From: Frankiaceae bacterium
GTDB taxonomy: Bacteria; Actinomycetota; Actinomycetes; BP-191
Assembly: GCA_035556555.1 (NCBI GenBank)
Contig: DATMES010000046.1
Coordinates: forward strand, 62,001-126,000
Length of the DNA stretch: 64,000 nt
Reading direction: 5' to 3'
The position numbers and the translations under genes are program-made. The notes under the pieces were generated by a model, which saw nothing but the letters and a program-made list of their open reading frames with translations, was not told the origin of the DNA and did not search any database. Below are positions 1,339 to 48,373 of this stretch, piece by piece. Each line of letters begins with the position of its first letter. The first letter of the stretch is position 1.

Positions 1339-1355
1339 TCGCCGCACCCACTTTT

Positions 1356-1417
1356 TTTCGTGATCTTGGCAACGTTCGTGCTGCCCGGGCACCACAAACG
1401 TTGCCAAGATCACGAAA
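1356..1417. repeat. 62-bp near-perfect palindrome (repeat family A, copy 1)
   Basis: Two 31-base arms (1356-1386 and 1387-1417) abut with no loop and differ at only two positions; the centre is CCCGGG. The arm begins TTTCGTGATCTTGGCAACGT. It lies between the convergent patatin and L,D-transpeptidase genes, where a bidirectional terminator would be expected, but neither side carries a U-tract. A related palindrome with the same CGTGATCTTGGC core occurs at 15049-15104. Confidence 0.85.
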
Positions 1418-1433
1418 GGCGGCGCGGACTGCG

Positions 1434-2297
1434 CTAGTCGACGATGGTCACCGGGGTGCCCGCCGGCACCAGGCGCGCGAGCGCGGTGACGTCGGCGTTG
1501 TGCATCCGTACGCAGCCGTTGCTCGACGCCTTGCCGATCGACCACGAGGCGTTGGTGCCGTGGATCGCGATCTGGCCGATGCCGTCCTTGCCGAACCGCT
1601 GCAGCACCTCGGAGAACCCCGCGACGCTGAGCATGTACGGCCCGTACGAGCAGCACGGCATCGCCGTGACGAAGTCGACGAAGAACGACCCCTTCGGCGT
1701 CGGCGTCGCGGGCTTGCCGACGGCGACGGTGCGGGACCAGACCGCCTTGCCGGCGTTGAACACCGTCAGCCGCTTGGCGCAGCGCTGCACGACGATCCGG
1801 TACGGCGCCTGGTAGCGCGCGAAGTCCACGATCTTCACCCAGCCGGTCGAGCCGTTGGGCCGCGCGACGAGCTGGATCCGCAGCCACAGGCCGCGCTGCT
1901 CGTGGACGAGCGCGTGCAGCGGCTGGCCCTCGATCGTCGGGTTGGTCAGCGTGCGCGTGACCGAGCCCTCGGGGCGGTCGTACACCCGCACCCGCGGCTT
2001 CACGGCCCTCGCCGCGGTCGCCGAGGACGACGCCACCGGAGGCATCGCGGGGCAGGACACGGATCGCGCGGCGGTCGCCGTGGCGACGCGCTTCGGCTTC
2101 GGCTTGGGCGCCACGCGCTTCGGCGCCGCGGACTCGGCGGCGACCTCGTAGTCGGGCGCGATCGCCTGCACCGCGAACGTCCCGGCGTCACCGGACGGCG
2201 TACGCAGCCGGTCGGCGGCGACACCCCCGCCCATCGCGACCAGCGCGGCGAGGGCGACCGCGAGCACGGTCACCGCCCTGCGCTTCTCGCGAGCCAC
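1434..2297 (-). CDS. L,D-transpeptidase (YkuD domain), secreted
   Basis: A 287-residue exported enzyme. Residues 1-30 form a signal/anchor (charged MAREKRR followed by a hydrophobic stretch), residues about 30-90 are an Ala/Lys-rich linker, and the C-terminal YkuD domain carries His246 in HGTNAS and the catalytic Cys262 in SSNGCVRM. The family forms 3-3 peptidoglycan cross-links or attaches proteins to the wall. A second, distinct YkuD protein is encoded at 13321, so the genome has at least two. The gene converges on the patatin gene across the palindrome at 1356-1417. Confidence 0.9.
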   Translation of the reverse strand: MAREKRRAVTVLAVALAALVAMGGGVAADRLRTPSGDAGTFAVQAIAPDYEVAAESAAPKRVAPKPKPKRVATATAARSVSCPAMPPVASSSATAARAVKPRVRVYDRPEGSVTRTLTNPTIEGQPLHALVHEQRGLWLRIQLVARPNGSTGWVKIVDFARYQAPYRIVVQRCAKRLTVFNAGKAVWSRTVAVGKPATPTPKGSFFVDFVTAMPCCSYGPYMLSVAGFSEVLQRFGKDGIGQIAIHGTNASWSIGKASSNGCVRMHNADVTALARLVPAGTPVTIVD

Positions 2298-2425
2298 GCG
2301 CCCAACTATGACGGCATTCGCGGCAAATGTCGTGGTCCGGACGGGTGGTTCGCGGGTGTTCGCCTGACTCGCGCCGTCCGGTAGCCGAGGGTGAGAGCGC
2401 CTGCCCGTCGATCCCAGGGGGACCC

Positions 2426-2749
2426 TTGACCACCACCCGCCGGCTCTCGCGCGCCCTCGTGGCGGCGCTGCTCACGGCGGGCCTCGCCGCCACCGGTACG
2501 CCGCCCGCGGGCGCGGCCGAGGCGACGTACCTGACGTTCACGGTCTCCGAGAGCTGCGTCGGGCTGCGCCGCGGTGAGACGCAGCCGGTCTCGTTCACCG
2601 TGAAGAACACCAGTGACGCGGCAGTCGGTACGACGTACCGGAGGCTGCTCTCCGTCGACCTCGGCAAGGTCCGCACGGGCCGCGTCACGATCAAGACGCT
2701 GACGACCGGCCGTGTGTACGTCGACGGGCTGGGTGCATCACGGGTCTAG
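2426..2749 (+). CDS. Short secreted protein of unknown function, possibly truncated
   Basis: I place the start at TTG 2426 because it follows an AGGGGGA ribosome-binding site and begins a typical signal peptide (TTTRRLSRALVAALL, cleavage near AGAAEA). About 75 mature residues follow, with a short Cys-containing beta-rich stretch (FTVSESCVGLRRGE) and no recognised domain. The stop codon is TAG inside the left terminal inverted repeat of the element at 2746-2906. The present C-terminus may therefore be an artefact of that insertion, and the original protein may have been longer. An upstream ATG in the same frame would put a charged, non-secretory extension in front of the signal peptide. Confidence 0.6.
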   Translation: MTTTRRLSRALVAALLTAGLAATGTPPAGAAEATYLTFTVSESCVGLRRGETQPVSFTVKNTSDAAVGTTYRRLLSVDLGKVRTGRVTIKTLTTGRVYVDGLGASRV

Positions 2750-2906
2750 GGCTCCTCTCGGCGCCGGTCCGTCGCGAGCGGCGTCCAGGGTGGTGGATCG
2801 CAAGGCGGAGAAGGCCGCGATAGCAGCGCTATCGGGGCCTGCGACAACGCAGCGAGCTGCCGGCCTGGGCGCTGCGCAGCAGGACGGGTGCCGGGAGGAG
2901 CCCTAG
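2746..2906. mobile_element. MITE-like element with 25-bp terminal inverted repeats
   Basis: The 161-base segment is bounded by CTAGGGCTCCTC at the left and its complement at the right; the 25-base ends 2746-2770 and 2882-2906 match at 22 positions when inverted. Inside is a second hairpin (2812-2840: 13-base arms with one mismatch, three-base loop AGC, containing GATAGC/GCTATC). No transposase is encoded. The ends start with TA inside CTAG, which would fit a TA target duplication, though that is inference. The TAG stops of both convergent neighbours lie within the inverted repeats. Confidence 0.6.
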
Positions 2907-3676
2907 TCGAGCTCGACGAGCAGCGGGGCGTGGTCGGACGGCTTGAGGCCCTTGCGGAAGTCGCGGTCGATGCCGCAGCGCGTGACGCGCGGCCCGAGGC
3001 GCGCCGACAGCAGCGCGAGGTCGATGCGCATGCCCATGTTCTTGTGGAACATCCCCGCCCGGTAGTCCCAGTACGTGAACCCCACGGCCTCCGGCTGGAC
3101 GACGCGGAACGCGTCCACGAGGCCGGTCGCGAGGATGCGGTCGAGGCGTTCGCGCTCGGCCGGCGAGGTGTGCGTCGTCCCTACGAAGAGCGCAGGGTCC
3201 CAGACGTCGCGGTCGTCGGGCGCGATGTTGAAGTCGCCCGTGACGAAGACCGGCAAGTCGCCCGCGGCGAGCACCTCCAGCCGCGAGCGCATCGCGTCGA
3301 GGAACGTCAGCTTCTCCTCGAACTGCGGCGCGTCCGGCGTCCGCCCGTTGACGACGTAGACGCTGCACACCCGCAGGTCCCCCACCGTCGCCTCCACCCA
3401 GCGCGCCTCCGACACCTGCACCTCGCCGGGGAGGCCGCGGACGACGTCGTACGGCGCGTTCGCCAGCGGCGACAGGACCGCGACGCCCGCCCAGCGGCCG
3501 CCCGAGAGGTGCGCGGCGGCGTATCCCGCCTCGGCCAGCGCATCCGTGGGGAACGCCGCCTCCCCCACCTTGGTCTCCTGCAGGCAGAGCACGTCGGGCG
3601 CGTGGGTGCCGAGGAACTCCAGCACGCGCGGCAGCCGCGCGGTGAGGGAGTTCACGTTCCAGGTCGCGAGGAGCAT
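2903..3676 (-). CDS. xth: Exodeoxyribonuclease III
   Basis: A 257-residue ExoIII-type AP endonuclease / 3'-5' exonuclease of base excision repair. It begins MLLATWNVNSL, carries the metal-binding Glu34 in CLQETK, TGDFNIAP with the catalytic Asp/Asn, and ends with the SDHAPL motif (His249). Full length for the family. The start lies only 17 bases from the divergent nucleotidyltransferase start, so the promoters must overlap coding DNA. Its stop codon lies inside the terminal repeat of the MITE-like element. Confidence 0.95.
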   Translation of the reverse strand: MLLATWNVNSLTARLPRVLEFLGTHAPDVLCLQETKVGEAAFPTDALAEAGYAAAHLSGGRWAGVAVLSPLANAPYDVVRGLPGEVQVSEARWVEATVGDLRVCSVYVVNGRTPDAPQFEEKLTFLDAMRSRLEVLAAGDLPVFVTGDFNIAPDDRDVWDPALFVGTTHTSPAERERLDRILATGLVDAFRVVQPEAVGFTYWDYRAGMFHKNMGMRIDLALLSARLGPRVTRCGIDRDFRKGLKPSDHAPLLVELD

Positions 3677-3693
3677 GTGCTTGAGTCTGCCGC

Positions 3694-4428
3694 GTGGTCG
3701 CGGCGGTCGTTCTCGCGGCGGGTCGCGGCAAGCGCCTGCGCCCGCTCACCGACCTGCGCCCCAAGCCGCTCTGTCCGGTCGCCAACGTCCCGCTCCTCGG
3801 CCGCAACCTCGACCAGGCGCTCGCCGTCACGCCCGACGTCGCGGTCAATGCCGGTTACCTCGCCGGGCAGGTCGTGGACTACGTCGGCGACCGCGCGCAC
3901 CTCTCCGTCGAGCCAGGTCCCGACGGCCTCGGCACGGCCGGCGCCATCGGCTACCTCAGGCCCTGGCTCGACGGCCGCGACGTGCTGGTGCTCAACGGCG
4001 ACGCGTACCGCCCCGACGGCCTCGGCGCGCTGCTCGACGGCTGGGACGGCGAGCGTGTACGCCTCCTCGTCACGCACGCGCCCGGCCGCGGCGACTTCGG
4101 CGACTGGCTGTTCGCGGGCGCGTCGCTCCACCCCTGGCACGCCGTCGAGGACCTGCGCGCGGAGCCGCTCGGCCTCTACGAGGCCGTCTGGCGCCACGTC
4201 GGCCCCGAGCTGGTGCCGTACGACGGGGTGTTCGTCGACTGCGGCACCGTCACCGACTACCTCGCCGCCAACATGCACGCCAGCGGCGGCCAGTCCGTCG
4301 TCGGCGAGGGCGCCGTGGTGGAGGGCGAGCTCGTGCGTTCCGTGGTGTGGCCCGGCGGCGTCGTACGGCCCGGCGAACGCCTCGTCGACGCCGTCCGCGT
4401 CGGCGCGGACCTCACGGTCACGGGTTAG
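3694..4428 (+). CDS. NDP-sugar nucleotidyltransferase (GlmU/ManC/RfbA-like)
   Basis: A 244-residue sugar-1-phosphate nucleotidyltransferase. Residues 7-19 contain the nucleotide-binding signature AAGRGKRLRPLT followed by KPLCPVAN, and NGDAY supplies the metal-binding Asp of the usual GD motif. The last 45 residues (VVGEGAVVEGELVRSVVWPG) look like one or two left-handed beta-helix turns, as in mannose-1-phosphate guanylyltransferases. The sugar and nucleotide are not determinable. The GTG start is the first in frame and leaves a very short divergent gap to xth. It is first in a plus-strand run reaching the metallophosphoesterase. Confidence 0.85.
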   Translation: MVAAVVLAAGRGKRLRPLTDLRPKPLCPVANVPLLGRNLDQALAVTPDVAVNAGYLAGQVVDYVGDRAHLSVEPGPDGLGTAGAIGYLRPWLDGRDVLVLNGDAYRPDGLGALLDGWDGERVRLLVTHAPGRGDFGDWLFAGASLHPWHAVEDLRAEPLGLYEAVWRHVGPELVPYDGVFVDCGTVTDYLAANMHASGGQSVVGEGAVVEGELVRSVVWPGGVVRPGERLVDAVRVGADLTVTG

Positions 4429-4458
4429 CGCGAGGCCGCGCGCGGGCAGGACCCGGAC

Positions 4459-5031
4459 GTGCCGTCCGACGACCCGCAGGAGATCCTCGCCAGCTGCAAG
4501 CGCGTCGCCGCGATCCTGCAGGAGGCGAAGATCCCGTTCGCCTTGGGCGGGGGCATCGCGTGCTGGGTCTACGGCGCGCCCGAGAGCGACCACGACGTGG
4601 ACGTCATGGTCCGCGAGGAGGACGCGCGCGGCGCCCAGGAGCTGCTCGTCGCGCACGGCATGAAGCCCGAGGACCCGCCCGAGGAGTGGCTGCTCAAGGT
4701 GTACGACGGCGACGTCCTCGTCGACCTCATCTTCCGTCCCGAGGGGCTGACGATCACCGACGAGGTCCTCGACCGCGCGCCGGTCCGCGACGTCAACGCG
4801 ATGAAGATGAAGGTCCTCCGGCTGGAGGACGTGTTCATCACCAAGCTGCTCTCGTACAACGAGCACCATCTCGACTTCCTCGGCCTGCTCGCCGTCGCGC
4901 GCGCGGTGCGCGAGCAGCTCGACTGGGCGGAGGTCGCGCGGCGGACGGACCACTCGCCGTTCGCGGCGGCGTTCCTCACGCTGGTCGAACGCCTCGGCAT
5001 CGTCGGCGAGCCACTCGAGGCGGCCGGGTGA
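4459..5031 (+). CDS. Small nucleotidyltransferase-fold protein
   Basis: A 190-residue protein with a minimal nucleotidyltransferase core: GGGIACWVYG (residues 30-39) followed by the metal-binding DHDVDVMV with Asp46 and Asp48, then VDLIF with a likely third acidic residue. Proteins of this type are often annotated as nucleotidyltransferase family or DUF6036-like; some relatives are antitoxins or toxins, but no partner toxin is adjacent here. It starts with GTG 4459, 30 bases after the upstream gene, and its stop overlaps the next start (GTGA), placing it in the 3694-6046 operon. Function unknown. Confidence 0.75.
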   Translation: MPSDDPQEILASCKRVAAILQEAKIPFALGGGIACWVYGAPESDHDVDVMVREEDARGAQELLVAHGMKPEDPPEEWLLKVYDGDVLVDLIFRPEGLTITDEVLDRAPVRDVNAMKMKVLRLEDVFITKLLSYNEHHLDFLGLLAVARAVREQLDWAEVARRTDHSPFAAAFLTLVERLGIVGEPLEAAG

Positions 5032-29864: not shown

Positions 29865-31097
29865 ATGGTCGCGCTGAACGGTGGATCGACCGGCAAGGAA
29901 GAGCCGAAGAAGGACGACAAGAAGGAAGAGAAGAAGGACCCGCCCAAGCTGGAGCTCGACCCCGCCAAGGACAAGGTCGAACGCGGCGACAAGACGAGCG
30001 GCCTCGGGCGGGTCATGGTCCACAGGACGAGCGCCACGCTCGCCTCCGACGTGGCGGCCGCGGTGAAGGCCAAGGTCGCCGGGCGACCGGTACGCATCGT
30101 GGAGGACCTCGGCGCCCTCCGGGGCGCCGACCTGCTGGCACTGCTCCTGCACCGGCTCGACGGGTTGGAGACGAGCCTCGACGCCGTCGTACCCGAACGC
30201 GACGAGGCGCCCGCGCCGCCGCCGAAGAAGCCCGCGAAGAAGGCACCGGCGAAGAAGAGCGCCGGCCCCCGCCTGGCCACCGTGGCCCCGATCTCGGTCG
30301 CCGCGGGCGCGCTGCAGGTCGCCGGGATCGTCAGCAAGCTGTTCGCGCACGACTACCAGCTCAGCGGGCGCGAGGTGCCGGTCGACAACCTCGGGTTCGA
30401 CCTCCAGGTCGCGCACCACCTCGCCGCCGCGGGCGTCACGAACATCCGGGTGGACCGCCTGCTGCCGTCCACGATCGCCGCCACCGACGTCGTACGGCGC
30501 GTCGCCGCGATCGAGAGACGGGCACGTACGGACCTCGCGAAGAAGATCGCCGAAGCCGCCGCCGACGAGGCCACGGCGGCCGCCGGCGCCACGGCGGACG
30601 CGAACGAGCACGCGCAAGTGGTCGAGCTCATCAAGCGGCTGGACTCCGCCGCCGCCGCGAAGGAGCTCGACAAGCTGCGTGCGGAGCGGAAGGCGTTGCG
30701 CGACCGGTCCGACGACGAAGGCCCGGGACATGACGCCCTCGTCGCGCTCGCCGAGGAGATCGCGACATTCGTCAACGAGGTCGTGACGCCGCCGTCCGGC
30801 GGCGGGCGAGCGCCGCTGATCGAGGCGGCCAGGGCCGAGGTGCTGGCGGCGCGCGCCAACCCCGAGCTGCTGCTCTACGTCCGCGTGACCGCCGGGGGCA
30901 TGGACGAGATCGTCGACTCGCGGCCGTTCCTCGCCGACAGCTGGACGACCGTTGCCGGCGTCGCCGCCGAGTACGCGGTGGTCGACGCCGGCAACATCAC
31001 GGTCTCGGGTGCGGTCTCCACCGTGCGGCGCAGGGAGGCGAAGCTCTCGCGGTTCCGCTGGTGGTGGCAGGCGAAGCCGCCGGGGCTGGAGGACTAA
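29865..31097 (+). CDS. Unrecognised protein with Lys-rich N-terminus and AKKAP linker
   Basis: A 410-residue protein I do not recognise. Residues about 9-45 are extremely rich in Lys, Glu and Asp; residues about 45-105 form a small domain (TLASDVAAAVKAKVAGRPVR); residues about 108-128 are a PPPKKPAKKAPAKKSAGPR linker like those of histone-H1-like proteins; the remainder is Ala/Glu/Arg-rich helix, partly coiled-coil (KELDKLRAERKALRDR). It ends in a Trp-rich segment, RFRWWWQAKPPG. The mix of a basic linker and coiled coil suggests a nucleic-acid or scaffold role, but that is inference. It overlaps the convergent pirin stop by four bases. Confidence 0.7.
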   Translation: MVALNGGSTGKEEPKKDDKKEEKKDPPKLELDPAKDKVERGDKTSGLGRVMVHRTSATLASDVAAAVKAKVAGRPVRIVEDLGALRGADLLALLLHRLDGLETSLDAVVPERDEAPAPPPKKPAKKAPAKKSAGPRLATVAPISVAAGALQVAGIVSKLFAHDYQLSGREVPVDNLGFDLQVAHHLAAAGVTNIRVDRLLPSTIAATDVVRRVAAIERRARTDLAKKIAEAAADEATAAAGATADANEHAQVVELIKRLDSAAAAKELDKLRAERKALRDRSDDEGPGHDALVALAEEIATFVNEVVTPPSGGGRAPLIEAARAEVLAARANPELLLYVRVTAGGMDEIVDSRPFLADSWTTVAGVAAEYAVVDAGNITVSGAVSTVRRREAKLSRFRWWWQAKPPGLED

Positions 31098-32065
31098 CGC
31101 ACGACGTGGGGCATCAGCGCGTCGGGCGGGATGACACCGAGCCGACCGGCGCGGTAGTCGTCCACGGCCTGCTGCAGCTCCTCGCGGGTGTTCATGACGA
31201 ACGGCCCGTACGCCGCCACCGGCTCGCGGATCGGCCGGCCGCCGAGCAGCAGCACGTCGAGCGCGGGCGTGACGGAGTCCTGCGACTCGTTCGCCGCGAC
31301 GGCGAGGGAGTCGCCTGCGCCGAGCACCGCGAGCTGGCCCGCGCGGATCGGCGCGCCCGGCGTGCCGACGGTGCCCGCGCCGCGGAGGACGTAGACCAGA
31401 GCGTTGAAGTCGGCCTGCCACGGCAGCTCCAGCCGCGCACCGGGCGCGACGGTCGCGTGGACGAGCGTGATCGGCGTCCGCGTCGAGCCGGGACCGGTGA
31501 CGCCACCGAGCGACCCGGCGATGAGCCGGATCAACGCGCCGCCGTCCGGAGACGCGAGCAGCGTGACGTCCTCGCCTTCGAGGTTCTGGTACGCCGGCGC
31601 GATCATCTTGTCCTTGGCCGGCAGGTTGACCCACAGCTGGAAACCGTGGAACAGCCCGCCCGACACGACCAGCTGCTCCGGCGGCGTCTCGATGTGCAGG
31701 ATGCCGCGCGCCGCGGTCATCCACTGCGTGGCACCGTCGCGGATGACGCCGCCGCCGCCATGGCTGTCCTGGTGCTGCATGATCCCGTCGAGCATGTACG
31801 TCACCGTCTCGAAGCCGCGGTGCGGGTGCCACGACGTGCCCTTGGGCTCGCCCGGGCCGTACTCGACCGACCCCATCTCGTCCATGTGGATGAACGGGTC
31901 GAGATCACGGAGCTGCACGCCGGCGAACGCGCGGCGCACGGGGAAGCCCTCTCCCTCGTACCCCTGCGGCGCGGTCGTCACCGAGCGCACGGGGCGCGGG
32001 ACGTCGCCGAGCGTCGGGGCAGGGACGCGGGGCAGGGTGATCGGGTCGGCGGTGACGGCGGGCAC
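31094..32065 (-). CDS. Pirin family protein
   Basis: A 323-residue bicupin. The N-terminal cupin shows the metal-binding pattern: DEMGSVEYGPGEPKGTSWHP with the first histidines, HRGFETVTYMLDG, QHQDSHGG and TAARGILHIE. GGLFHGFQLWVNLP and the second cupin (VYVLRGAGTVG) follow. Bacterial pirins can act as quercetinases or redox-sensing regulators. GTG 32065 has GGAGG five bases upstream and is preferred over the longer reading that starts in the promoter region. A region with repeated GCAACTAT boxes separates it from the divergent DUF2505 gene. Confidence 0.9.
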   Translation of the reverse strand: MPAVTADPITLPRVPAPTLGDVPRPVRSVTTAPQGYEGEGFPVRRAFAGVQLRDLDPFIHMDEMGSVEYGPGEPKGTSWHPHRGFETVTYMLDGIMQHQDSHGGGGVIRDGATQWMTAARGILHIETPPEQLVVSGGLFHGFQLWVNLPAKDKMIAPAYQNLEGEDVTLLASPDGGALIRLIAGSLGGVTGPGSTRTPITLVHATVAPGARLELPWQADFNALVYVLRGAGTVGTPGAPIRAGQLAVLGAGDSLAVAANESQDSVTPALDVLLLGGRPIREPVAAYGPFVMNTREELQQAVDDYRAGRLGVIPPDALMPHVVR

Positions 32066-39130: not shown

Positions 39131-40612
39131 GTGCCCGGTATGCCCCGAGTTGCCACGGTTCTAGCAGCCGTCCTCGCCCTGTCCGCCGCACCCGCCTCGG
39201 CCCACCAGCCCGGCCTGTGCCTGACCCCCGCCGAACGTTGCGAGACCTGGTCCGCGACGTACGACGACACCTCGATCGCCGCACCCGCGCGGTCCGACCA
39301 GTTCGCCCAGCAGGTGCTCGCCAACGCGACCACCGTCTTCACCGTCGTCCGCAGCGTCGCGATGACACCAGACCGCCCGTCGGATGCCACCTCGTCGGCG
39401 GTGATCGTGGCGTACGACCGCGTCTCCGGCTCGGTGCGCTGGACGGCGCGGGAGCGTTCACGCGTGTACTTCTCGCCGCACAACGCCACGCTCTCCCCCG
39501 ACGGCTCGCGCCTCTACCTGACGAGCGCGGCGTACGACGGCTGGCCCATCGGCAAGGTCGACTCGCGGATCGTGACGACCGCGTACTCGACCGCGTCCGG
39601 CACCGTCGAATGGTCGTCGTCGTGGGACGGACGGCCTGACGCCGTCGACAACCCGAAGGGGGTTGTCGTCTCCCCCGACGGCCGCTCCGTCTTCGTCACG
39701 GGTGTCACGACGGCCGTGGCCGGCGACCTCGACTACGTGACGCTGGCGTACCGCGCCTCCGACGGCCGGTCGCTGTGGGCCGACGTGTACGACGGCGTCG
39801 GCGGCGGCGGGACGGACGCGCCGTTCGGCATCGCGGTGTCACCTGACGGTCAGGTGCTCGCCGTGACCGGGTGGAGCGCGGGGGTCGTGGAGTACGACGC
39901 CGACTACGGCACGGTCGCGTACTCGCTGCGCGGCCGTGGTGGGAAGCGGCTCTGGACCGCGCGCTACGACGGCCTCGGCGTCGACAAGAGCGACCGCGGC
40001 AACGCCGTCGCGATCGACGGCGACCGCGTCTACGTCACCGGCGACTCGTACGGCGCCTCCGGCTACGACTACGCGACCGTCGCGTACGCGCTGTCGTCAG
40101 GCCAGCAGGTCTGGGACGCGCGGTGGTCGGGCGGACGCGGCGGCTTCAACGCCGCGACCGCGGTCGCCGCGGCGGGCGGCCGCGTCGTCGTGACCGGCCA
40201 GTCCACCGCGGCGTCCGCCGACGACGGCAACGACACCGGCACCGTCGTCCTCGACGCGGCGACCGGTGCGCAGCGGTGGGCGGCGTCGTTCGGGCCGGTG
40301 CGCCACGACGGGTTCGCGCGCGGGCTGGCGCTGTCGCCGGACGGCGCGACGGCGTACGTCGTCACGCTCGAGACGCCGATCGTCAAGTACACGGCGATGT
40401 CCCGGCTCGGCCTCGTGGCGTACGACGTGGCGACCGGCGCGGTGCGCTGGCAGACGTTCCTCGACGCGGCGCTGACCGAGTCGTTGAAGGGCGCCGACGT
40501 CGCGGTCTCGCCGGACGGGTCGGTGGCCGTCGTCGGCGACTACACACGCAGCGCCGACCCGTTGAAGCCGCCGACGCAGAACGTGTACGACGTCGTGACG
40601 GCCGTGTTCTAG
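39131..40612 (+). CDS. Secreted PQQ-like beta-propeller protein
   Basis: A 493-residue exported protein with a signal peptide (PRVATVLAAVLALSAAPASA). The mature part repeats blades built as GVVVSPDGRSVFVTG, GIAVSPDGQVLAVTG and GLALSPDGATAYVVT, each paired with a (Y/V)D-x-x-(T/S)G-x-x-(R/W)W strand, as in PQQ-dehydrogenase/WD40-like propellers. No cofactor or catalytic residues are evident; a binding or scaffold role is likely. GTG 39131 directly follows the upstream stop; ATG 39140 is an equally possible start. Confidence 0.8.
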   Translation: MPGMPRVATVLAAVLALSAAPASAHQPGLCLTPAERCETWSATYDDTSIAAPARSDQFAQQVLANATTVFTVVRSVAMTPDRPSDATSSAVIVAYDRVSGSVRWTARERSRVYFSPHNATLSPDGSRLYLTSAAYDGWPIGKVDSRIVTTAYSTASGTVEWSSSWDGRPDAVDNPKGVVVSPDGRSVFVTGVTTAVAGDLDYVTLAYRASDGRSLWADVYDGVGGGGTDAPFGIAVSPDGQVLAVTGWSAGVVEYDADYGTVAYSLRGRGGKRLWTARYDGLGVDKSDRGNAVAIDGDRVYVTGDSYGASGYDYATVAYALSSGQQVWDARWSGGRGGFNAATAVAAAGGRVVVTGQSTAASADDGNDTGTVVLDAATGAQRWAASFGPVRHDGFARGLALSPDGATAYVVTLETPIVKYTAMSRLGLVAYDVATGAVRWQTFLDAALTESLKGADVAVSPDGSVAVVGDYTRSADPLKPPTQNVYDVVTAVF

Positions 40613-42300
40613 GCCTTGCGCAGGTAGTTCAGCCGTGTCCTGAGCTGCTCCGCCGTCGCCTCGGCGGTCACCGGACCGCCGCAGGCGCGGCGCAGCTCGG
40701 CGTGGATCAGCGCCTGGCTGCGGCCGACGCGCAGGGCGACGGCGTTGACCAGGGCGTTGAGGTCCTTGCGCAGGAGGACCAGCTCCTCGTGCGCGGTCAG
40801 TGGCTTGGGCTCCTTCTTGGTGCCGCGGAGCCTGGCCTGCTGCTCGGCCTGGCGGCGTTGCAGCAGGACCGCGACCTGGTCGGCATCGAGGAGGCCGGGG
40901 AGGCCGAGGTACTCCTCCTCCTCGGGCGTGCCCGGCGCGGCCGCGGAGCCGTAGTCGGCACCGTCGAAGATGAGGCGGTCCAGGTGCGCATTGGCACCCA
41001 GGGCCTCCCATCTCTGCGCGTCGACCTCAGGGGTGCTGCGCGTCGTGTTGGCCTCGCGGAGCAGCGCGTCGTCCCACTCGCCGTCGCGCATCGGGCGGTC
41101 GAGGGCGTGGTCGCGTTCGACCTCCATCTCAGCCGCGAGCGCGAGCAGGCTCGGCACGCTCGGCAGGAACACACTCGCTGTCTCCCTGCGGTTTCGCGCC
41201 CGTACGAAGCGTCCGACGGCCTGCGCGAAGAACAGCGGCGTCGACACGCTCGTCGCGTAGACGCCGACCGCCAGCCGAGGTACGTCGACGCCCTCGCTGA
41301 CCATGCGTACGGCGACCAGCCAGCGGTCGTTCGACGCGCCGAACTCCGCGATCTTGCGGCTCGCCTTCGGGTCGTCGGAGAGGACGACCGTGGGGGCTTC
41401 GCCGGTGATGCGGCGCAGCAGGGCGGCGTACGAGCGGGCGGTGTTGTGGTCGGAGGCGATGACCAGGCCGCCGGCGTCGGGCATCTCGCGGCGCTTCGCG
41501 GTGAGGCGCTGGTCGGCGGCCTGGAGGACCGTGGGGATCCACTCGCCCTTCGGGTCGAGCGCCGTACGCCACGCCTGTGCCATCGCGTCCTGCGTCAGCG
41601 GCTCGCCGAGGGTGGCGGCGACCTCGTCACCGGCGGACGTGCGCCAGCGCATCTCGCCGCTGTAGGCGAGGAAGAGCACGGGCCGGACGACCTTGTCGCG
41701 CAGGGCGTCGCCGTAGCCATACGAGTGGTCGGCGCTGCTCCTGCGGATGCCGTCGGGTCCGGCCTCGTACGTGACGAACGGGATCGCGCTCGTGTCGCTC
41801 CTGAACGGCGTGCCCGTGAGCGCGAGTCGTCGGGTGGCCGGGTCGAACGCCTCCCTGACCGCGTCGCCCCACGACTTCGCGTCGCCGGCGTGGTGGATCT
41901 CGTCGAGGATCACGAGCGTCCTTCTCGCCTCGGTGCGCGCGCGGTGCAGCATCGGGTGGGCGGCGACCTGCGCGTACGTCACGGCGACGCCGGTGAAGTC
42001 GCGACTCGTCTTGGCGATGGCGTTGGAGAACGTCGGGTCTAGGTCGATGCCGGCCTGTGCCGCGGCCTGCGCCCACTGCGACTTGAGGTGCTCCGTCGGC
42101 GTGACGACCGTGACCGCCTGGACCGTGTGGTCGTTCAGCAGCTCGGTCGCGACCTTGAGCGCGAACGTCGTCTTGCCGGCGCCAGGCGTCGCGACGGCGA
42201 GGAAGTCCTGCGGGCGGCGTTGGAGGTACGCCACGAGGGCACGGCGCTGCCACGCGCGCAACGGAGGGGCGGGGTCGTACGAGGAGGTCGCGAGGGTCAC
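40609..42300 (-). CDS. DEAD/DEAH-box SF2 helicase
   Basis: A 563-residue superfamily 2 helicase. N-terminal LRAWQRRAL precedes Walker A ATPGAGKTTFAL (residues about 36-47), motif II is ILDEIHHAGD, motif III LTGTPF, and the C-domain holds VAVRMVSEGVDVPRLAV and FAQAVGRFVRARNR (motif VI), as in UvrB/RecG-like or type III restriction helicase cores. A C-terminal helical extension of about 170 residues has no recognised nuclease. The family is widespread in actinomycetes with no fixed role. It marks the left border of the accessory island. Confidence 0.88.
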   Translation of the reverse strand: MTLATSSYDPAPPLRAWQRRALVAYLQRRPQDFLAVATPGAGKTTFALKVATELLNDHTVQAVTVVTPTEHLKSQWAQAAAQAGIDLDPTFSNAIAKTSRDFTGVAVTYAQVAAHPMLHRARTEARRTLVILDEIHHAGDAKSWGDAVREAFDPATRRLALTGTPFRSDTSAIPFVTYEAGPDGIRRSSADHSYGYGDALRDKVVRPVLFLAYSGEMRWRTSAGDEVAATLGEPLTQDAMAQAWRTALDPKGEWIPTVLQAADQRLTAKRREMPDAGGLVIASDHNTARSYAALLRRITGEAPTVVLSDDPKASRKIAEFGASNDRWLVAVRMVSEGVDVPRLAVGVYATSVSTPLFFAQAVGRFVRARNRRETASVFLPSVPSLLALAAEMEVERDHALDRPMRDGEWDDALLREANTTRSTPEVDAQRWEALGANAHLDRLIFDGADYGSAAAPGTPEEEEYLGLPGLLDADQVAVLLQRRQAEQQARLRGTKKEPKPLTAHEELVLLRKDLNALVNAVALRVGRSQALIHAELRRACGGPVTAEATAEQLRTRLNYLRKA

Positions 42301-42343
42301 GGCGGCTTTCGGTCGAGCGGTCCGGAACGGTCCCCCGACGCTA

Positions 42344-42365
42344 CCGGAGGCTCCGCCGCCTCCGG
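42344..42365. repeat. Perfect 8-bp stem-loop at the left island border
   Basis: CCGGAGGC and GCCTCCGG pair around a six-base loop, in the divergent gap between the helicase (minus) and the FRG gene (plus). It sits at the point where base composition falls. Could be a terminator or simply a border hairpin. Confidence 0.35.
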
Positions 42366-42411
42366 GCCCAGACGCGCCGTACGGCACAGCAGCCGAGCAC
42401 CGAGTTTCACA

Positions 42412-42417
42412 TAGAAT
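42412..42417 (+). promoter_or_regulatory. -10-like TAGAAT box before the FRG gene
   Basis: TAGAAT stands in an AT-richer patch 50 bases before the favoured GTG start. A matching -35 hexamer is not evident. A transcript starting about seven bases downstream would exclude the ATG at 42416, which supports the start at 42467. Confidence 0.35.
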
Positions 42418-42466
42418 GACTGACCACGGCGGTACCATCACGGCACCCAAGGGGGAGATCGTCCCG

Positions 42467-43192
42467 GTGGATATCACCTGCGTAGCGGACCTCCTGGACG
42501 CGCTCCGGAGTACGGCAGGGCCTCCACAACGTTGGTTTCGAGGCCACTCCGATGCGACGTGGTCGCTGACACCGCCCGTGTCGCGCAACCGCGGGTGGCT
42601 GCAGGAAGAAGCCGCGATGCTAAAGCGGTTCGTTCAGGAATCTGCGTCGCGAGTCCGTCACCGCCCGCAACACAAATGGGAGTGGATTTGTCTCGCTCAG
42701 CATCACGGAGTCCCCACGCGACTTCTAGACTGGACTGAGAATCCACTAATTGGCCTATACTTCGCGGCTGAACGCGACGAAGTTGACGGCCGACGCGTGG
42801 ACGGCCAACTTTGGGCTATGGACCCCCTCGCTGTCAACGCAGCTCATTACGCGGGGCCGACTGGCATCCTGCTGTTGGATCATGACGAAGCGCTCGGTGA
42901 GTACCTCCCGGACACGCTCACTGCAGGCCCTCGAAAGAGCTCATTGGCAGTCCTCGCGCCACGATCGTTCGATCGAGTAATTGCGCAGAGTGGCGTCTTC
43001 ACGGTCTCACACGCCTCCGACATGCGACCCCTCAACACGGTCGTACCCGCCGCGTTCGACTCTTGGACCATACCCCTCCCACATAAAGAGCAGATACGCA
43101 ATGAACTCGACACCTTTAACATCAATGCGTCTACTGTGTATCCTGATTTGTCACACATCTGCGACCGTATATCCTCCACATTTCGGCGTTAA
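42467..43192 (+). CDS. FRG domain-containing protein
   Basis: A 241-residue protein defined by the FRG domain: QRWFRGHSDATWSLTPPVSR near the N-terminus, and CLAQHHGVPTRLLDWTENPL with LIGLYFAAE about residues 60-100. FRG domains occur in proteins of defence islands and prophages, and no enzymatic activity is firmly assigned. I chose GTG 42467 (VDITCVADLLDAL) because AAGGGGGAG lies well spaced upstream and the domain starts at once; ATG 42416 would add 17 residues. Codon use and base composition differ from the flanking GC-rich genes, suggesting transfer. DUF262 follows nine bases later. Confidence 0.82.
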   Translation: MDITCVADLLDALRSTAGPPQRWFRGHSDATWSLTPPVSRNRGWLQEEAAMLKRFVQESASRVRHRPQHKWEWICLAQHHGVPTRLLDWTENPLIGLYFAAERDEVDGRRVDGQLWAMDPLAVNAAHYAGPTGILLLDHDEALGEYLPDTLTAGPRKSSLAVLAPRSFDRVIAQSGVFTVSHASDMRPLNTVVPAAFDSWTIPLPHKEQIRNELDTFNINASTVYPDLSHICDRISSTFRR

Positions 43193-43201
43193 GGAGCGAC
43201 G

Positions 43202-44293
43202 GTGGATATAGATGTAAGCCCACTCCGGCATAACAGCGTCGGCTATGTTCATGGCATTCGTGACCAAATAGACATGAACCCGACCTACCAGCGCCAAGGT
43301 GCGATATGGCCCGTCGACAAGCAGCAACTTCTCATCGACTCTCTCTTGAACAACTTCGACATTCCCAAGATCTACTTCCACCAGTTTGCGACGCCAATGA
43401 CGATTGACGGCCGGCGTGTACGTTACGCATTGGTTGATGGAAAGCAGCGCCTTGAGGCCATTTGGGGTTATCTTGATAACGCCTTCCCGCTAGGTGACGA
43501 TTTCGTTCTATTCGACGATCCCCAAGTGAGTGCGGCGGGACTCACCTATAACGAGCTGTCGCAGAAACACCCAGAGCTTGCGGCCTTAATGAATGCGACA
43601 TCGCTCGACATCGTTGCTATACGAACAGACGATCTTGAGATGATCGAAGAAATGTTCTCGAGGTTGAACGAGGCCGTACCCCTCAACGCCGCCGAAAAGC
43701 GGAATGCCATTGGTGGCCCCGCCCGAAGTGCCGTATTATCCCTAGTCACGCACGAGTTTTTTTCCAAAAAATTAGGGTTTTCGAACAAGCGGTATCGCCA
43801 CTACGATCTAGCCGCAAAGTTTCTCCTCTGGGCAGATGATCCGGACTTTGGCACTCAGAGCGTGCCGGCCGACGTCTCGGTGCGAGATGTCAAGAAGTAT
43901 CGGCTGGATGCGTTCTTCCACGAGGTCAAGGACTCCCCTCAGGGCGGGACGCGCATGAATAGTGCTTCGGTAGAAGCGATGAAGGTACTCGACTCCCTCG
44001 CGAGTGTATTCGTCGACAATGACCGGATGCTATTATCCAGTGTAAGCATGGTGTCCCTGTACTTCCTACTGTTCCAGTTGCGCCTCAGGCAGAAGGTCGA
44101 CTTGCCCCAGCGCGCCGACCTGGTCGAGTTCGACCGGGTCAGGCACGAGAACCGGGCCGTCGCAGAAGACGAGTTGGAGCCGGCGCAATACAACCTACTG
44201 GAGTTCGACCGACTCGCGCAGAGTCCAAATGACCGCAGTGCGCTCGAATTTAGATTAAGGGTGCTTGACGATTGGCTCACTGGTGAGCTGTAG
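43202..44293 (+). CDS. DUF262 domain-containing protein
   Basis: A 363-residue protein. The DUF262 core shows MNPTYQRQGAIWPVDKQQLL, then YALVDGKQRLEAIWGYL, the ParB/Srx-like nucleotide-binding DG(Q/K)QR motif, and FSRLNEAVPLNAAEKRNA. DUF262 is the N-terminal half of GmrSD-type enzymes, but the C-terminal DUF1524 HNH nuclease domain is absent; the remaining 180 residues are helical and unassigned. It starts at GTG 43202 with GGAG five bases upstream, nine bases after the FRG gene, so the two form an operon. The base composition is clearly lower in GC than the host genes. Confidence 0.85.
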   Translation: MDIDVSPLRHNSVGYVHGIRDQIDMNPTYQRQGAIWPVDKQQLLIDSLLNNFDIPKIYFHQFATPMTIDGRRVRYALVDGKQRLEAIWGYLDNAFPLGDDFVLFDDPQVSAAGLTYNELSQKHPELAALMNATSLDIVAIRTDDLEMIEEMFSRLNEAVPLNAAEKRNAIGGPARSAVLSLVTHEFFSKKLGFSNKRYRHYDLAAKFLLWADDPDFGTQSVPADVSVRDVKKYRLDAFFHEVKDSPQGGTRMNSASVEAMKVLDSLASVFVDNDRMLLSSVSMVSLYFLLFQLRLRQKVDLPQRADLVEFDRVRHENRAVAEDELEPAQYNLLEFDRLAQSPNDRSALEFRLRVLDDWLTGEL

Positions 44294-44729
44294 TGCTGTG
44301 GTGGCCGCCTAATACTTGAGTCTCAACCGTATCAGCGACAGCCTCTACATCCCGCCTGACCTCGCTCTCCCATACCCGTACAACGCGCCAGCCGAGAGAA
44401 ACGAGCGCCGCATTAACCTCCCGATCGCGTGCGATATTTCGTTGGATCTTTGTACGCCACCGCTCCGGGTCGCGATGTCGAGCGAACTGCGCCTCGAACG
44501 AATCGAAGCCACGCTCTCGCCACCCCTGACCGTGCCAGAAGTCGCCATCGACAAAAACCACCAGACGCGCACGCGCGAATACGATGTCCGGTCGCCCCGG
44601 AATGCTCCTCGCGTGTAGACGATATCGAAGACCGCGCCGGTGTAGCGCCCGACGAAGAAGAAGTTCAGGCTCGGTGTTCTTGCTCTTCACCGCCGCCATG
44701 ATCCGGCTGGTGACTGCGGCATCCCGCAC
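44277..44729 (-). CDS. vsr: Vsr-like very-short-patch repair endonuclease
   Basis: A 150-residue Vsr-family nuclease that nicks T:G mismatches arising from m5C deamination. Diagnostic features: TSRIMAAVKSKNTEPELLLR, LHRRGLRYRLHARSIPGRPD, VVFVDGDFWHGQGW with the catalytic Asp and His, and a C-terminal LGWRVVRVWESEV. The zinc-site cysteines of E. coli Vsr are not present, as in many Vsr relatives. It follows the endonuclease gene with a one-base overlap (TAGTG) and forms the end of the restriction-modification operon. It overlaps the convergent DUF262 end by 17 bases. Confidence 0.88.
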   Translation of the reverse strand: MRDAAVTSRIMAAVKSKNTEPELLLRRALHRRGLRYRLHARSIPGRPDIVFARARLVVFVDGDFWHGQGWRERGFDSFEAQFARHRDPERWRTKIQRNIARDREVNAALVSLGWRVVRVWESEVRRDVEAVADTVETQVLGGHHSTTAHQ

Positions 44730-45598
44730 TAGAGAGCCTCCTCGGAACCCTTCTCGATGCCGTCGTCCTTGTCGGCGTTGGGCACTTCGGCCGCTCCAAG
44801 GCGACGGGGGCCTTCGGCGAACGTCACTCCACCACCGAACGAGCGCCAATAGAACATGGCGCTGTCGTACTCAGTTCCATTCTCGGGATACAAGATGATG
44901 TAACCCGGTAGCGCGGTGGCTTGCCACCGTGGAGGCAGCGCTTTGAGAACGATTGCTATCGCATCACGCGCGGGCATCCTGGCGTCGGGAATCATCAGGG
45001 ACGCGTTCGTGTAGTCGCTCGCCGCTGAATCGTTTCTCCTCGGGTCCTCGAACCTCAGGAGGTACGGAAGGGCCGCCTTCAGCATCGGCAGGGCTTCGGC
45101 CGCGGTCATCGGTCCCGGCAGCAGATCGACCACCACGTCAAGGTTGATCGGGTGCAGCGCATCGAAGTGGTTGACCGCGACCCTGCTGGTGTCACGGCGG
45201 CGACCCGGATCGTTGTTCCCGAAGCCGTTCGTGTTCCACAACGCCGCGCTGTGCGTCCGATGTCGCTTGATGAGCAGTGTTTCGGGGGCGGACGCCTCAA
45301 GGTCCTCGTCCACGTAGAGACACACGAAGCGGACTTCGCGATCTTCGAACCCTTGGCGTCCGGACAGCTTCCTCGCGTGCGCCGCGAGACGGGATGGCAG
45401 TGACCTACTCGCCTTGCCGATGTACACGAGCTCGTCGTTGATGAGCAACTGGTAGACGCCGGGTCGGTCCTGCAGGTGGGTGAGCGCATCCACCGTGAGC
45501 ACCGTGGGAACGCAACGGCGCAACGCCTCGGCCAGTTGATCCGCTAGAGCACGCGTGATGGAGAGCTTGAAATCGAGGTCCGGCCGCGAGTCACTCAC
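44729..45598 (-). CDS. Eco29kI-like GIY-YIG restriction endonuclease
   Basis: A 289-residue protein. The GIY-YIG nuclease is written as GVYQLLINDELVYIGKA (residues about 48-64), with RLAAHARKLSG (catalytic Arg region), ETLLIKRHRTH with the catalytic Glu, and NTNGFGNNDPGRRR, the Eco29kI-type signature. Eco29kI-like enzymes are type II endonucleases cutting GC-rich palindromes (CCGCGG for Eco29kI itself); the specificity here is not known. The last 120 residues are an unassigned domain. Its operon partners are the m5C methyltransferase (24-base gap) and Vsr. Confidence 0.85.
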   Translation of the reverse strand: MSDSRPDLDFKLSITRALADQLAEALRRCVPTVLTVDALTHLQDRPGVYQLLINDELVYIGKASRSLPSRLAAHARKLSGRQGFEDREVRFVCLYVDEDLEASAPETLLIKRHRTHSAALWNTNGFGNNDPGRRRDTSRVAVNHFDALHPINLDVVVDLLPGPMTAAEALPMLKAALPYLLRFEDPRRNDSAASDYTNASLMIPDARMPARDAIAIVLKALPPRWQATALPGYIILYPENGTEYDSAMFYWRSFGGGVTFAEGPRRLGAAEVPNADKDDGIEKGSEEAL

Positions 45599-45621
45599 GG
45601 ATCAACGCTATCGCGGTGACG

Positions 45622-46830
45622 TCAGACGCCGGTCAAGGTTCGGAGCCGCTCGCCGACGGCTTGAGCGACCCGAACGGCGACGGCGTTGCCGATGTGACGC
45701 ATAGCGTGGCTGCGGGCTCCGGTGAACTCGTACCAGTCCGGGAACCCTTGGACGCGAGCCGCCTCTCGGGTAGTCATGTATCGCAACGAGCCATCGGAGA
45801 AGCGGATCATCGCCTCGCCACCGCAGACGCCATGAACACCCGCCTTGATCGTCTTGGCCGGCGCGTCGATGTCACTTCCGGTATGTCCAGGGTAGGAACG
45901 CGCGCCGGGAACCCCGACGTGGTTCGGCCACTGTCCACGTTGCTCGCCGTCCACGGGAGTCGGAAGCGGCTCTGGCTCGCGCAGTACGTCACGCACCGTG
46001 CGCCAACGCTTGTCCGATGGCCTCCCCGTATCGCGTAGTCGGGCTATGCGACGCGAGACGATCGAGGGGGCTTGCGGCAATCCGCTACGGACGATCCCAC
46101 GCACGACGGGGTCATCAGCGTGCTCTTCCCAATACGACCCGCTGACGTACTTGTCGTAGAGCAGCGCGTCCTCCGAGTGATCGCCGGCCAGTTCGCCCCA
46201 CTCGACCCCGAGGTCCTCGCGGATCCCGATCAGGAAGACCCGGCGCCGCGACTGCCCAACACCGACGTCGGCGGCCAGGATGACCTGTCTCGCGACGCGA
46301 TACCGGACATCCGTCCCCGGCCCACGTCGACGCACTCGTGCCCAGTGGTCATGCCACGTCTCCCCGCGACGGGGCACCACGGACGGGGCCTCGAGTTGGT
46401 CACGGACGTAGTCGAAGTACGGCTTGAACGATGGTCGCAACAGGCCCGGGACGTTCTCGAAGACCACCATCTTCGGGACGCATGCACGGACGACGTCCAA
46501 CGCCGCCGGGAACATGTTCCGTTCGTCGTTGTCGCCAGCGTGGAGTCCACCGAGCGAGAAGGGCTGGCACGGAGGCCCGCCGGCGACCAGATCGATGCCG
46601 TGGTAGTCCGCTGCGCGTTCGGCGGCGAACTTTCGGACGTCGCCGCACTCAACGCGCTCTACCGCCCACGGCGGTTGGCCGATGGTGGGGTCAGGCCTGG
46701 TCGCGTTCAACCGCAAGGTGTCACACGCGCGTTCGTCCCACTCGACAAGGCGTAGGTGGTCGAAGCCCGCAAGATGAAGGCCCAGGGCCATGCCGCCGCC
46801 GCCGGCGAAGAGCTCGACGGACGTGGCCAT
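45622..46830 (-). CDS. DNA (cytosine-5-)-methyltransferase
   Basis: A 402-residue C5 methyltransferase. Motif I is VELFAGGGGMALGLHLAGF, motif IV GGPPCQPFS with the nucleophilic Cys, motif VI FENVPG, motif VIII QSRRRVF, and motifs IX-X are AARVQGFPDWYEF and RHIGNAVAVRVAQAVG. It should protect the host from the adjacent Eco29kI-like enzyme. All ten usual motifs are intact, so it is probably active. It is followed by the endonuclease and Vsr genes; upstream lies a gene of unknown function on the same strand. Confidence 0.93.
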   Translation of the reverse strand: MATSVELFAGGGGMALGLHLAGFDHLRLVEWDERACDTLRLNATRPDPTIGQPPWAVERVECGDVRKFAAERAADYHGIDLVAGGPPCQPFSLGGLHAGDNDERNMFPAALDVVRACVPKMVVFENVPGLLRPSFKPYFDYVRDQLEAPSVVPRRGETWHDHWARVRRRGPGTDVRYRVARQVILAADVGVGQSRRRVFLIGIREDLGVEWGELAGDHSEDALLYDKYVSGSYWEEHADDPVVRGIVRSGLPQAPSIVSRRIARLRDTGRPSDKRWRTVRDVLREPEPLPTPVDGEQRGQWPNHVGVPGARSYPGHTGSDIDAPAKTIKAGVHGVCGGEAMIRFSDGSLRYMTTREAARVQGFPDWYEFTGARSHAMRHIGNAVAVRVAQAVGERLRTLTGV

Positions 46831-46882
46831 GCGGTCAATCTAGCTCCTGACGTACGAGGTGACGCGGAGGCGCGCTTGGCGC

Positions 46883-47320
46883 CTACCGCAGGTCGGGAAA
46901 CGTGGCGCGCAGGATCTCGATCATGCGCGTCGCCGCCTTCTTGTCGAACTGGAGTGTCTGGCTGGGCTTGGGCCTTGTCTCCCGGAACTTCGACCCGAAT
47001 GTCGTGATCTGGAGGTACTTCTCCCCGCCGGTGTCAACGACCTGATGCCGGACGTCGACGACGGTGGGGTGCGGCAACGATCCGCCCCGTACCTCGATGA
47101 ACTCGTTCACCCTTGCCACGGCGTCCTCCGTCACATCTTGCGTGTAAGCGCCGTTGACGGCGCTACGCCAAGTTTGCCGTGTCCACAGGTCCCCGTCCCC
47201 GTTGCGGCCCGAGACGAGCGGCGAACTCAGGCTGGCCTGATCGCCGTCGTCCGGGCAGCGGTCTCCTGCCCACGCAAGGTCGACCGTCGTCCCACCGACC
47301 ACCCCGGAAGCGGTGTCCAT
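46883..47320 (-). CDS. Unknown small protein upstream of the methyltransferase
   Basis: A 145-residue protein I do not recognise. The C-terminal 45 residues look like a compact beta-alpha unit (KYLQITTFGSKFRETRPK, then SQTLQFDKKAATRMIEILR), while the N-terminal 60 residues are Gly/Asp-rich and may not be coding, so the start is uncertain. No helix-turn-helix typical of a restriction-modification control protein is seen. It is 52 bases upstream of the methyltransferase on the same strand and may share its transcript. Confidence 0.5.
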   Translation of the reverse strand: MDTASGVVGGTTVDLAWAGDRCPDDGDQASLSSPLVSGRNGDGDLWTRQTWRSAVNGAYTQDVTEDAVARVNEFIEVRGGSLPHPTVVDVRHQVVDTGGEKYLQITTFGSKFRETRPKPSQTLQFDKKAATRMIEILRATFPDLR

Positions 47321-47383
47321 GTGAGCCCCGGGAGGATCGGTCCATTGCCATCACTTAGCTCTCCACCCTGAAGCACGATCGCG

Positions 47384-47782
47384 TCACTCGGATGCCGGCG
47401 TGACATCGAGGCGCAGCGCCGCCGCTGAGACACAGACATCGAAGTACCGAAGGAACCCCTCCTGGCCGAGGAGTTGGAAGTCCCACGGCCAGGGATCACA
47501 GAACGAGACCGGCGCTCTCCAGTGGTAGTCGCCCAACCGCAGGTCAACGTCGACCGTGCGGCCCGTCGTGAGATGCCCCCCGAGCGCGAACGTCTCGACC
47601 TCGCAAGAACGCAGGTCGAGGTCCGCGATGTCGGCGATCCACTGCCCGAAGCGATTCCGCAACGCACCCGTGTCCACCAGACACGCGAGCCCGGTGCGTT
47701 CGATCCCCGCGACATGGACGTCGACAAGAGGCCGCGCCACGGCCTCTGCCCGTCCAGGCAGCAGCCGGAAGGGGATCTCCAA
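47384..47782 (-). CDS. Retropepsin-like aspartic protease-fold protein
   Basis: A 132-residue protein with the clan AA aspartic protease pattern: ACLVDTGALRNRFGQW near residue 32-47 supplies the DTG(A) motif, and LLGQEGFLRYFDVCV the second hydrophobic-Gly strand. Such single-lobe proteins act as dimers. Start TTG 47782, two bases after the upstream DUF5678-like stop, so the two genes are translationally coupled. No ATG or GTG lies nearer. Whether it is a working protease is untested; DTG is intact. Confidence 0.7.
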   Translation of the reverse strand: MEIPFRLLPGRAEAVARPLVDVHVAGIERTGLACLVDTGALRNRFGQWIADIADLDLRSCEVETFALGGHLTTGRTVDVDLRLGDYHWRAPVSFCDPWPWDFQLLGQEGFLRYFDVCVSAAALRLDVTPASE

Positions 47783-47783
47783 C

Positions 47784-48296
47784 TCAGCCGCCGAGCACGT
47801 CGCGTGTCGGGTCGAGCGGGACCCTGAACAAGGACTCGGCCGTGAGGTCCCGCCGCTGCAACGTCCGGATGACCTCCTGCGGGGATGCCCCGGACACCAA
47901 CACCTCGTCGCCCCGCACCGCGACCCACTGCCCGACGTACTCCCTCAATGTGCTCACGCCCCTCTCCGCGTTACCCCGCGCGGCACCCACCGTCCGCACT
48001 TCCACGACGCCGGGCGCAATGCCGACACCAAGCGGGACCGCTTCGGAAGAGCTCGAACGGCGCCGTCCAACCTCGAAGCCCAGGCGATGCAGGATCCGGC
48101 GAGCTTGATAGGTCGTGAAGTCGGCCCTGTCGATGTTCAGGAGTACCGCGAGGGCTTGCTTCGGCGGGAATCGGCGGCCGCGGACGACGACGTAGTGATC
48201 GCGTACCGGCTCTGGCTCCACCGCGGCTAGGCGGTCGACCGAAGCATCGTGGTCGATCGCGTACTCCGTGCCGTTGAGCACACCGGTCACCCTCAT
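47784..48296 (-). CDS. Two-domain protein with C-terminal DUF5678-like segment
   Basis: A 170-residue protein. The N-terminal part (HYVVVRGRRFPPKQALAVLL and RADFTTYQARRILHRLGFEV) resembles a small domain found at the front of some restriction-type proteins; I cannot name it. The C-terminal part (TLREYVGQWVAVRGDEVLVS, then GASPQEVIRTLQ) has the look of DUF5678. It is directly upstream of the retropepsin-like gene and begins at ATG 48296, next to a dyad at 48298-48323. It is the right-most gene of the island. Confidence 0.65.
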   Translation of the reverse strand: MRVTGVLNGTEYAIDHDASVDRLAAVEPEPVRDHYVVVRGRRFPPKQALAVLLNIDRADFTTYQARRILHRLGFEVGRRRSSSSEAVPLGVGIAPGVVEVRTVGAARGNAERGVSTLREYVGQWVAVRGDEVLVSGASPQEVIRTLQRRDLTAESLFRVPLDPTRDVLGG

Positions 48297-48297
48297 A

Positions 48298-48323
48298 GAA
48301 CCATTATTTTCTTACTATGGTTC
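48298..48323. promoter_or_regulatory. AT-rich dyad at the right island border
   Basis: GAACCAT (48298-48304) and ATGGTTC (48317-48323) form a 7-base inverted repeat around an AT-rich centre (TATTTTCTTACT). It lies two bases upstream of the DUF5678-like start and 50 bases before the SNF2 helicase. The AT-rich core on the minus strand could be the -10 region, with the dyad an operator. Confidence 0.45.
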
Positions 48324-48373
48324 CCTGGCAACAGCACGCGCGGGAAGCACCCTGCCGGGCTTAGGCTGGCCTG

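Follow-up and report, generated by a model that had tools for sequence, protein, structure and literature searches.

What do an FRG gene and a DUF262 gene accomplish together when they lie next to each other in the genome of a Frankiaceae bacterium? DUF262 proteins form the sensor part of several defence systems and have mostly been studied together with a DUF1524 nuclease. The original prediction described the two genes as an operon in a transferred island, possibly a new anti-phage unit made of a sensor and an effector. The window, i.e. the whole stretch of 64,000 nucleotides that was analysed, contains the following features at this locus:

42381-48354, no strand: insert of about 6 kb, missing in sister genome G001, with another cassette in its place in sister genome G002
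42416-43192, plus strand: FRG gene, 258 aa from ATG 42416 or 241 aa from GTG 42467
43202-44293, plus strand: DUF262 (GmrSD_N) gene, 363 aa, PF03235 with E=1.3e-14
44277-44849, minus strand: Vsr mismatch endonuclease, TIGR00632 above cut-off and PF03852, 5' end probably shorter
44729-45598, minus strand: Eco29kI-like GIY-YIG restriction endonuclease, PF09517 with E=1e-7, just above cut-off
45622-46830, minus strand: C5-cytosine DNA methyltransferase, PF00145 with E=8.8e-51
46883-48296, minus strand: three small ORFs of the insert (46883-47320, 47384-47782 and 47784-48296)

As originally described, the DUF262 gene begins 9 bp past the FRG stop codon on the same strand, and ribosome-binding-type sequences precede the GTG starts of both genes (GGGGGAG for FRG, TAAGGAG for DUF262). 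The predicted FRG start at GTG 42467, located just behind GGGGGAG, is possible, with the in-frame ATG 42416 as an alternative; at 258 or 241 aa the protein is untruncated in comparison with its relatives (224-295 aa). A ResIII-type helicase ORF (40609-42588, minus strand) overlaps FRG only as an open-frame artefact, its start lying at about 42303 by alignment with the sister genomes. The pair indeed faces a restriction-modification (R-M) operon, with the genes for Vsr, the Eco29kI-like nuclease (44% to a gene neighbouring the pair in the Streptomyces locus L017) and the C5 methyltransferase all convergent to it. Among the small ORFs, 46883-47320 and 47384-47782 had no match in Pfam or PADLOC, and 47784-48296 matched DUF5678 at the cut-off. 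The product of ORF 47384-47782 (minus strand) carries an LVDTGA motif resembling that of retropepsin-like aspartyl proteases, without a library match.

The lower GC content noted at the outset was reproduced, with 56.5% in the pair and 62.5% in the insert against 73.2% in the remainder of the window. Comparison of the window with the loci L104 and L105 by blastn placed the left edge of the insert between 42346 and 42381. The sister genome G001 presents an empty site, in which 134 bp separate the counterparts of window positions 42345 and 48356 and the SNF2-type and ResIII-type helicase genes flanking the insert adjoin each other, whereas in G002 the same helicase interval (L105, C72:36000-44500) holds a C5 methyltransferase, Vsr and a NaeI-type endonuclease. 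Being vacant in G001 and filled by another R-M cassette in G002, the site represents a restriction-cassette hotspot, at which the FRG-DUF262 pair arrived with or beside a restriction cassette, and the description as a transferred island is supported. L105 thereby shows that cassettes are exchanged at this site among members of a single genus. At its edges, the insert has neither clear direct repeats nor clear attachment sites.

A search across genomes for FRG genes beside DUF1524-less DUF262 genes, as the original prediction had proposed, revealed a conserved unit of two genes, which are inherited and transferred jointly. An alignment of three DUF262 sequences, used to scan the genomes of 84,980 species, returned 73 loci. 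In 54 of them FRG immediately precedes DUF262 on the same strand; among near-full-length DUF262 matches the proportion was 51/55. An upstream FRG was also present in seven of eight loci on viral contigs, the eighth being cut off on that side. Altogether 63 loci with an FRG-adjacent DUF262 were obtained, in which order and strand are kept and the DUF262 start mostly overlaps the FRG stop by 1-4 bp (frequently by 4 bp) or else lies within about 16 bp of it. The hosts belong to at least 12 phyla (Actinomycetota, Pseudomonadota, Myxococcota, Acidobacteriota, Bacteroidota, Bacillota, Chloroflexota, Verrucomicrobiota, Nitrospirota, Nitrospinota, Ignavibacteriota and Armatimonadota), which rules out restriction to a single lineage. 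The pair was found as well in Enorma (L014/L047) and on a plasmid of Hymenobacter (Bacteroidota), and both prophage and plasmid copies exist; at DNA level, a Sodalis query detected no copy in complete E. coli genomes.

The distance matrices of FRG and DUF262 were correlated with r=0.86 (best of 2000 permutations 0.13), a test that ignores phylogeny and makes the same point as synteny. In a quick tree with SH-aLRT support only, 58 FRG-paired DUF262 proteins and five others formed one cluster (97% SH-aLRT), the five being members without a visible FRG, in one instance because the locus is cut. Supported clades mix phyla, as expected of horizontal movement, and the GC content of the pair was lower than that of its flanks in 48/48 loci.

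The FRG protein belongs to PF08867 (Pfam, E=1.3e-25; 90.5 bits against a curated cut-off of 25) and matched PDC-S15 in PADLOC (E=5e-52). Three motifs stand out:

42533-42544, plus strand: W-x-R-G motif, codons 40-43, on a beta strand (40-44) of the AlphaFold2 model
42698-42733, plus strand: QHxGxPTRLLDW motif, codons 95-106, from the alignment
42974-43000, plus strand: R..AQ.G.F motif, codons 187-195, candidate third active-site element

W40, R42 and G43 are present in 57/58 aligned sequences, the remaining one being gapped there; H96, P100, R102, L103 and D105 are unchanged across all 58, and R187, Q191 and F195 are likewise invariant. Unpaired FRG proteins keep the R and Q of the third motif and most invariant residues of the three motifs as well. 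The AlphaFold2 model (pLDDT 92.3, pTM 0.88; one row from a plasmid record was left out of the alignments used for structure models) yielded nothing significant in Foldseek against the PDB (best E 0.017, TM-scores about 0.2-0.4), and PDB sequence searches returned no match for either protein of the pair. ADP-ribosyltransferases (Rhs toxin domains, PltA-type, CARDS, DarT1 and Arr) make up much of this weak list, in agreement with the published placement of Frg in the ADP-ribosyltransferase (ART) superfamily, for which an NADase role was proposed (PMC9503650). On this basis FRG is a putative ART-superfamily protein and a predicted NAD+-consuming effector. FRG-family matches also occur in temperate phages, namely Lactococcus phage TP901-1 (34804-35178, ORF54) and Peduovirus P22H1 (30994-31767), and are consistent with phage-borne defence or superinfection genes.

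The DUF262 protein carries two motifs located by alignment:

43286-43294, plus strand: YQR motif, codons 29-31
43436-43450, plus strand: DGKQR nucleotide motif, residues 79-83

The retention of DGKQR and the lack of DUF1524 were both confirmed. In Pfam, DUF1524 was absent from the protein and from the neighbouring genes, with only GmrSD_N and a helical C-terminus remaining; this C-terminal part is conserved and common to the whole family, and the length of 363 aa compares with 343-418 aa in 57 relatives. Within YQR, Y is kept in 56/58 sequences and Q and R in 58/58; within DGKQR, D, G, Q and R are each kept in 58/58 and K in 53/58. In SspE, the substitutions Y30A and Q31A abolish modification sensing, and DGQQR is required for GTP hydrolysis (PMC9646914). 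Judged by motif, YQR would be equivalent to the modification-sensing Y30-Q31 of SspE; both motifs are common across DUF262 generally and do not prove sensing of 5-methylcytosine (5mC). The AlphaFold2 model (pLDDT 93.8) retrieved BrxU as the best Foldseek match (prob 0.99), followed by ParB, Noc and sulfiredoxin, so the protein has, according to its model, a sensor-type ParB/Srx-like fold related to BrxU.

Comparison with known systems shows that the make-up of the pair resembles that of PD-T4-2 and Menshen, which combine DUF262 with other effector genes (PMC10952713). PD-T4-2 (DUF262 + HEPN) likewise joins a small DUF1524-less DUF262 to a second toxic-type gene, and PD-T4-2_A matched our DUF262 protein with 2.2e-12; its partner is HEPN instead of FRG, however, HEPN-paired DUF262 proteins lie far off on the tree, and no HEPN was detected in the insert by Pfam or PADLOC. 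NsnA, the DUF262 component of Menshen (NsnABC), was the best PADLOC match (2.5e-24), but both matches are confined to residues 20-208, that of NsnA covering the N-terminal domain only, and PADLOC recognized no NsnB, NsnC or OLD nuclease among the neighbouring genes. Dazbog, which also consists of two genes, gave no match in the PADLOC 2.0.0 results, the presence of a Dazbog model in that version being unconfirmed. SspE, DndI, BrxU and GmrSD share the ParB/Srx-like DUF262 NTPase with DGxQR, modification sensing being theirs, but carry a DUF1524 HNH nuclease in the same or a partner protein where FRG stands here; measured against type IV GmrSD, DUF262 with DG(Q/K)QR is present and a fused or adjacent DUF1524 HNH nuclease is missing. 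PDC-S15, a PADLOC candidate of the same FRG family, is listed as a single gene without described DUF262 pairing. The SIR2-based NADase systems DSR1/2 and Sir2-HerA resemble the pair in predicted NAD+ depletion, and SIR2 occurs beside related DUF262 genes, yet their effector fold and sensor are different. In agreement with the original statement that no named system consists of just these two genes, the searchable literature, whose scope excludes bioRxiv, most subscription papers and supplements, contained no name, description or experiment for the pair and mentioned PF08867 only in a context unrelated to it; an earlier mention may exist, e.g., in comparative-genomics papers on NAD-dependent conflict systems.

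Where small DUF262 genes are less closely related, a similarly tight junction links them to a different partner: SIR2 (clear by Pfam in L004, L005 and L073; in L074-L079 a weak Pfam match together with SIR2-like motifs recognized by eye), HEPN in the PD-T4-2 arrangement (L082, L084) and RelA/SpoT (L083). Hence the partner slot holds toxic-type effectors, with RelA/SpoT as a possible third type; SIR2 proteins are often NADases in defence. In L083 (Tsukamurella, 1249-4644), a C5 methyltransferase, DUF262 and the RelA/SpoT-domain protein stand in a tight row. In L074-L079 (Bacillota), an R-M operon with a C5 methyltransferase, sometimes Vsr, and an NgoMIV-type (L077 and relatives) or EcoO109I-type nuclease (L074) runs straight into the SIR2-like and DUF262 genes, whose ends overlap.

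Enrichment near defence genes, proposed at the outset as a check, was seen for C5 methyltransferases; in other PADLOC matches 20 flanks were only modestly richer than 20 controls, general PADLOC and Pfam flank tallies being too coarse for strong defence enrichment outside C5 methyltransferases. Using HMMs made from the window's methyltransferase, nuclease and Vsr within about 5 kb of the pair, we detected a C5 methyltransferase in 17/58 FRG-pair loci against 0/20 regions of the same contigs at a distance from the pair (Fisher p=0.004), and in 14/22 loci of the window's clade against 3/36 outside it (p=1e-5; clade members not independent). An Eco29kI-type gene was present in 12/58 loci, and these two counts rule out, as a general rule, that the pair is an obligatory part of Eco29kI-type R-M. 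The arrangement varies: (Vsr)-methyltransferase-nuclease-FRG-DUF262 form a tight row in one direction in L021-L024, R-M is convergent to the pair in the window, L025 and L027 and divergent in L069 and L096, and in the phage contigs L093/L094 the methyltransferase lies 3 and 16 bp upstream of FRG. Nuclease types vary as well (Eco29kI; NotI in L019; NgoMIV or EcoO109I beside the SIR2 version). This repeated association in varied arrangements suggests a functional affinity of the pair for 5mC R-M and not one inherited block. In L025 (6154-9846), a 576-aa gene that looks DUF262/GmrSD-like by eye stands between Vsr and the C5 methyltransferase, beside the pair. The record of L018 is titled Vibrio cholerae 35D, but its flanking GC near 63% makes the organism name doubtful.

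On balance we lean, with moderate confidence, towards a mobile anti-phage module of two genes that acts by abortive infection, in which a DUF262 switch would gate an NAD+-attacking FRG. This rests on the conserved order, strand and tight junction, the 51/55 paired homologues, the correlated distances and the tree cluster, together with partner swapping, the ART assignment of FRG, the BrxU/ParB-like DUF262, the hotspot, the low GC content and the C5 methyltransferases. The DUF262 NTPase, akin to the sensing half of BrxU, GmrS and SspE, would monitor DNA modification state or invading DNA via its YQR/DGKQR pocket and would keep FRG inactive in healthy cells; upon infection, NTP binding or hydrolysis might release or activate FRG, which would then consume NAD+ (or ADP-ribosylate a target) and stop phage growth. 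In the window's clade, the pair commonly travels with 5mC R-M cassettes and may serve there as a second line of defence. The original wording of sensor plus effector and anti-phage unit, still a matter of inference, fits the family evidence. Against the module stand the weak match of FRG to ARTs, the generality of YQR/DGKQR within DUF262, the non-obligatory R-M link and the modest PADLOC enrichment of the flanks outside C5 methyltransferases.

A tighter coupling to methylation is conceivable, though less likely: the C5 methyltransferase would mark self, DUF262 would read the mark, with SspE and phosphorothioate as a precedent (PMC9646914), and loss or absence of the mark would free FRG or SIR2, so that the pair replaces or backs up the restriction enzyme. 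The tight row of L021-L024, the phage contigs L093 and L094 with the methyltransferase abutting FRG and no recognized restriction enzyme found, and the methyltransferases beside SIR2-DUF262 (L074-L079) and DUF262-RelA/SpoT (L083) speak for it; yet 41/58 pairs have no C5 methyltransferase within about 5 kb, in L018 an in-frame stop splits the methyltransferase although both genes of the pair are intact, and the methyltransferases are of several kinds and orientations. Extended to a modification-coupled abortive class, in which self DNA is marked by a 5mC methyltransferase, the mark is read by a small DUF262 NTPase and one of several exchangeable toxic effectors (FRG/ART, SIR2 or RelA/SpoT) substitutes for the nuclease or backs it up, the idea is possible and equally doubtful.

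Toxin-antitoxin behaviour, with FRG as toxin and DUF262 as antitoxin kept for stabilising mobile islands and R-M cassettes and not for defence, would account for the tight junction, the low GC content and the prophage, plasmid and island copies, but appears unlikely: an invariant nucleotide pocket with a sensor-type motif is unusual in a simple antitoxin, and the DUF262 relatives that belong to PD-T4-2, Menshen and Dazbog serve in defence (PMC10952713). Slightly less likely still is that FRG, directed to foreign DNA by DUF262, modifies nucleic acid by DarT-like ADP-ribosylation instead of consuming NAD+. DarT1 is among its weak Foldseek neighbours and DUF262 relatives act on DNA (PMC10952713), whereas the alternative partners of related DUF262 proteins include SIR2, and no gene for reversing the modification, such as one for a macrodomain, was seen beside the pair. 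Chance adjacency, or a decayed type IV GmrSD gene broken by a frameshift, has a negligible probability. The absence of DUF1524 would fit such decay, but dozens of unrelated genomes share these genes with identical order and strand, and the full-length DUF262 with its family-wide C-terminal helical part is conserved with the pair in more than 50 species, which refutes both.

New here, in part as we infer it, are the ART/NADase reading applied to the FRG of the pair, the SIR2 partner swapping and the recurrent link to 5mC R-M. If the anti-phage module reading is true, the FRG family would gain a concrete partner and role as a widespread, DUF262-coupled and predicted NAD+-attacking protein. The pair makes it possible to test directly which signal the DUF262 switch perceives and by what means it controls an effector unrelated to it, and the recurrent 5mC R-M link suggests a specific candidate trigger.
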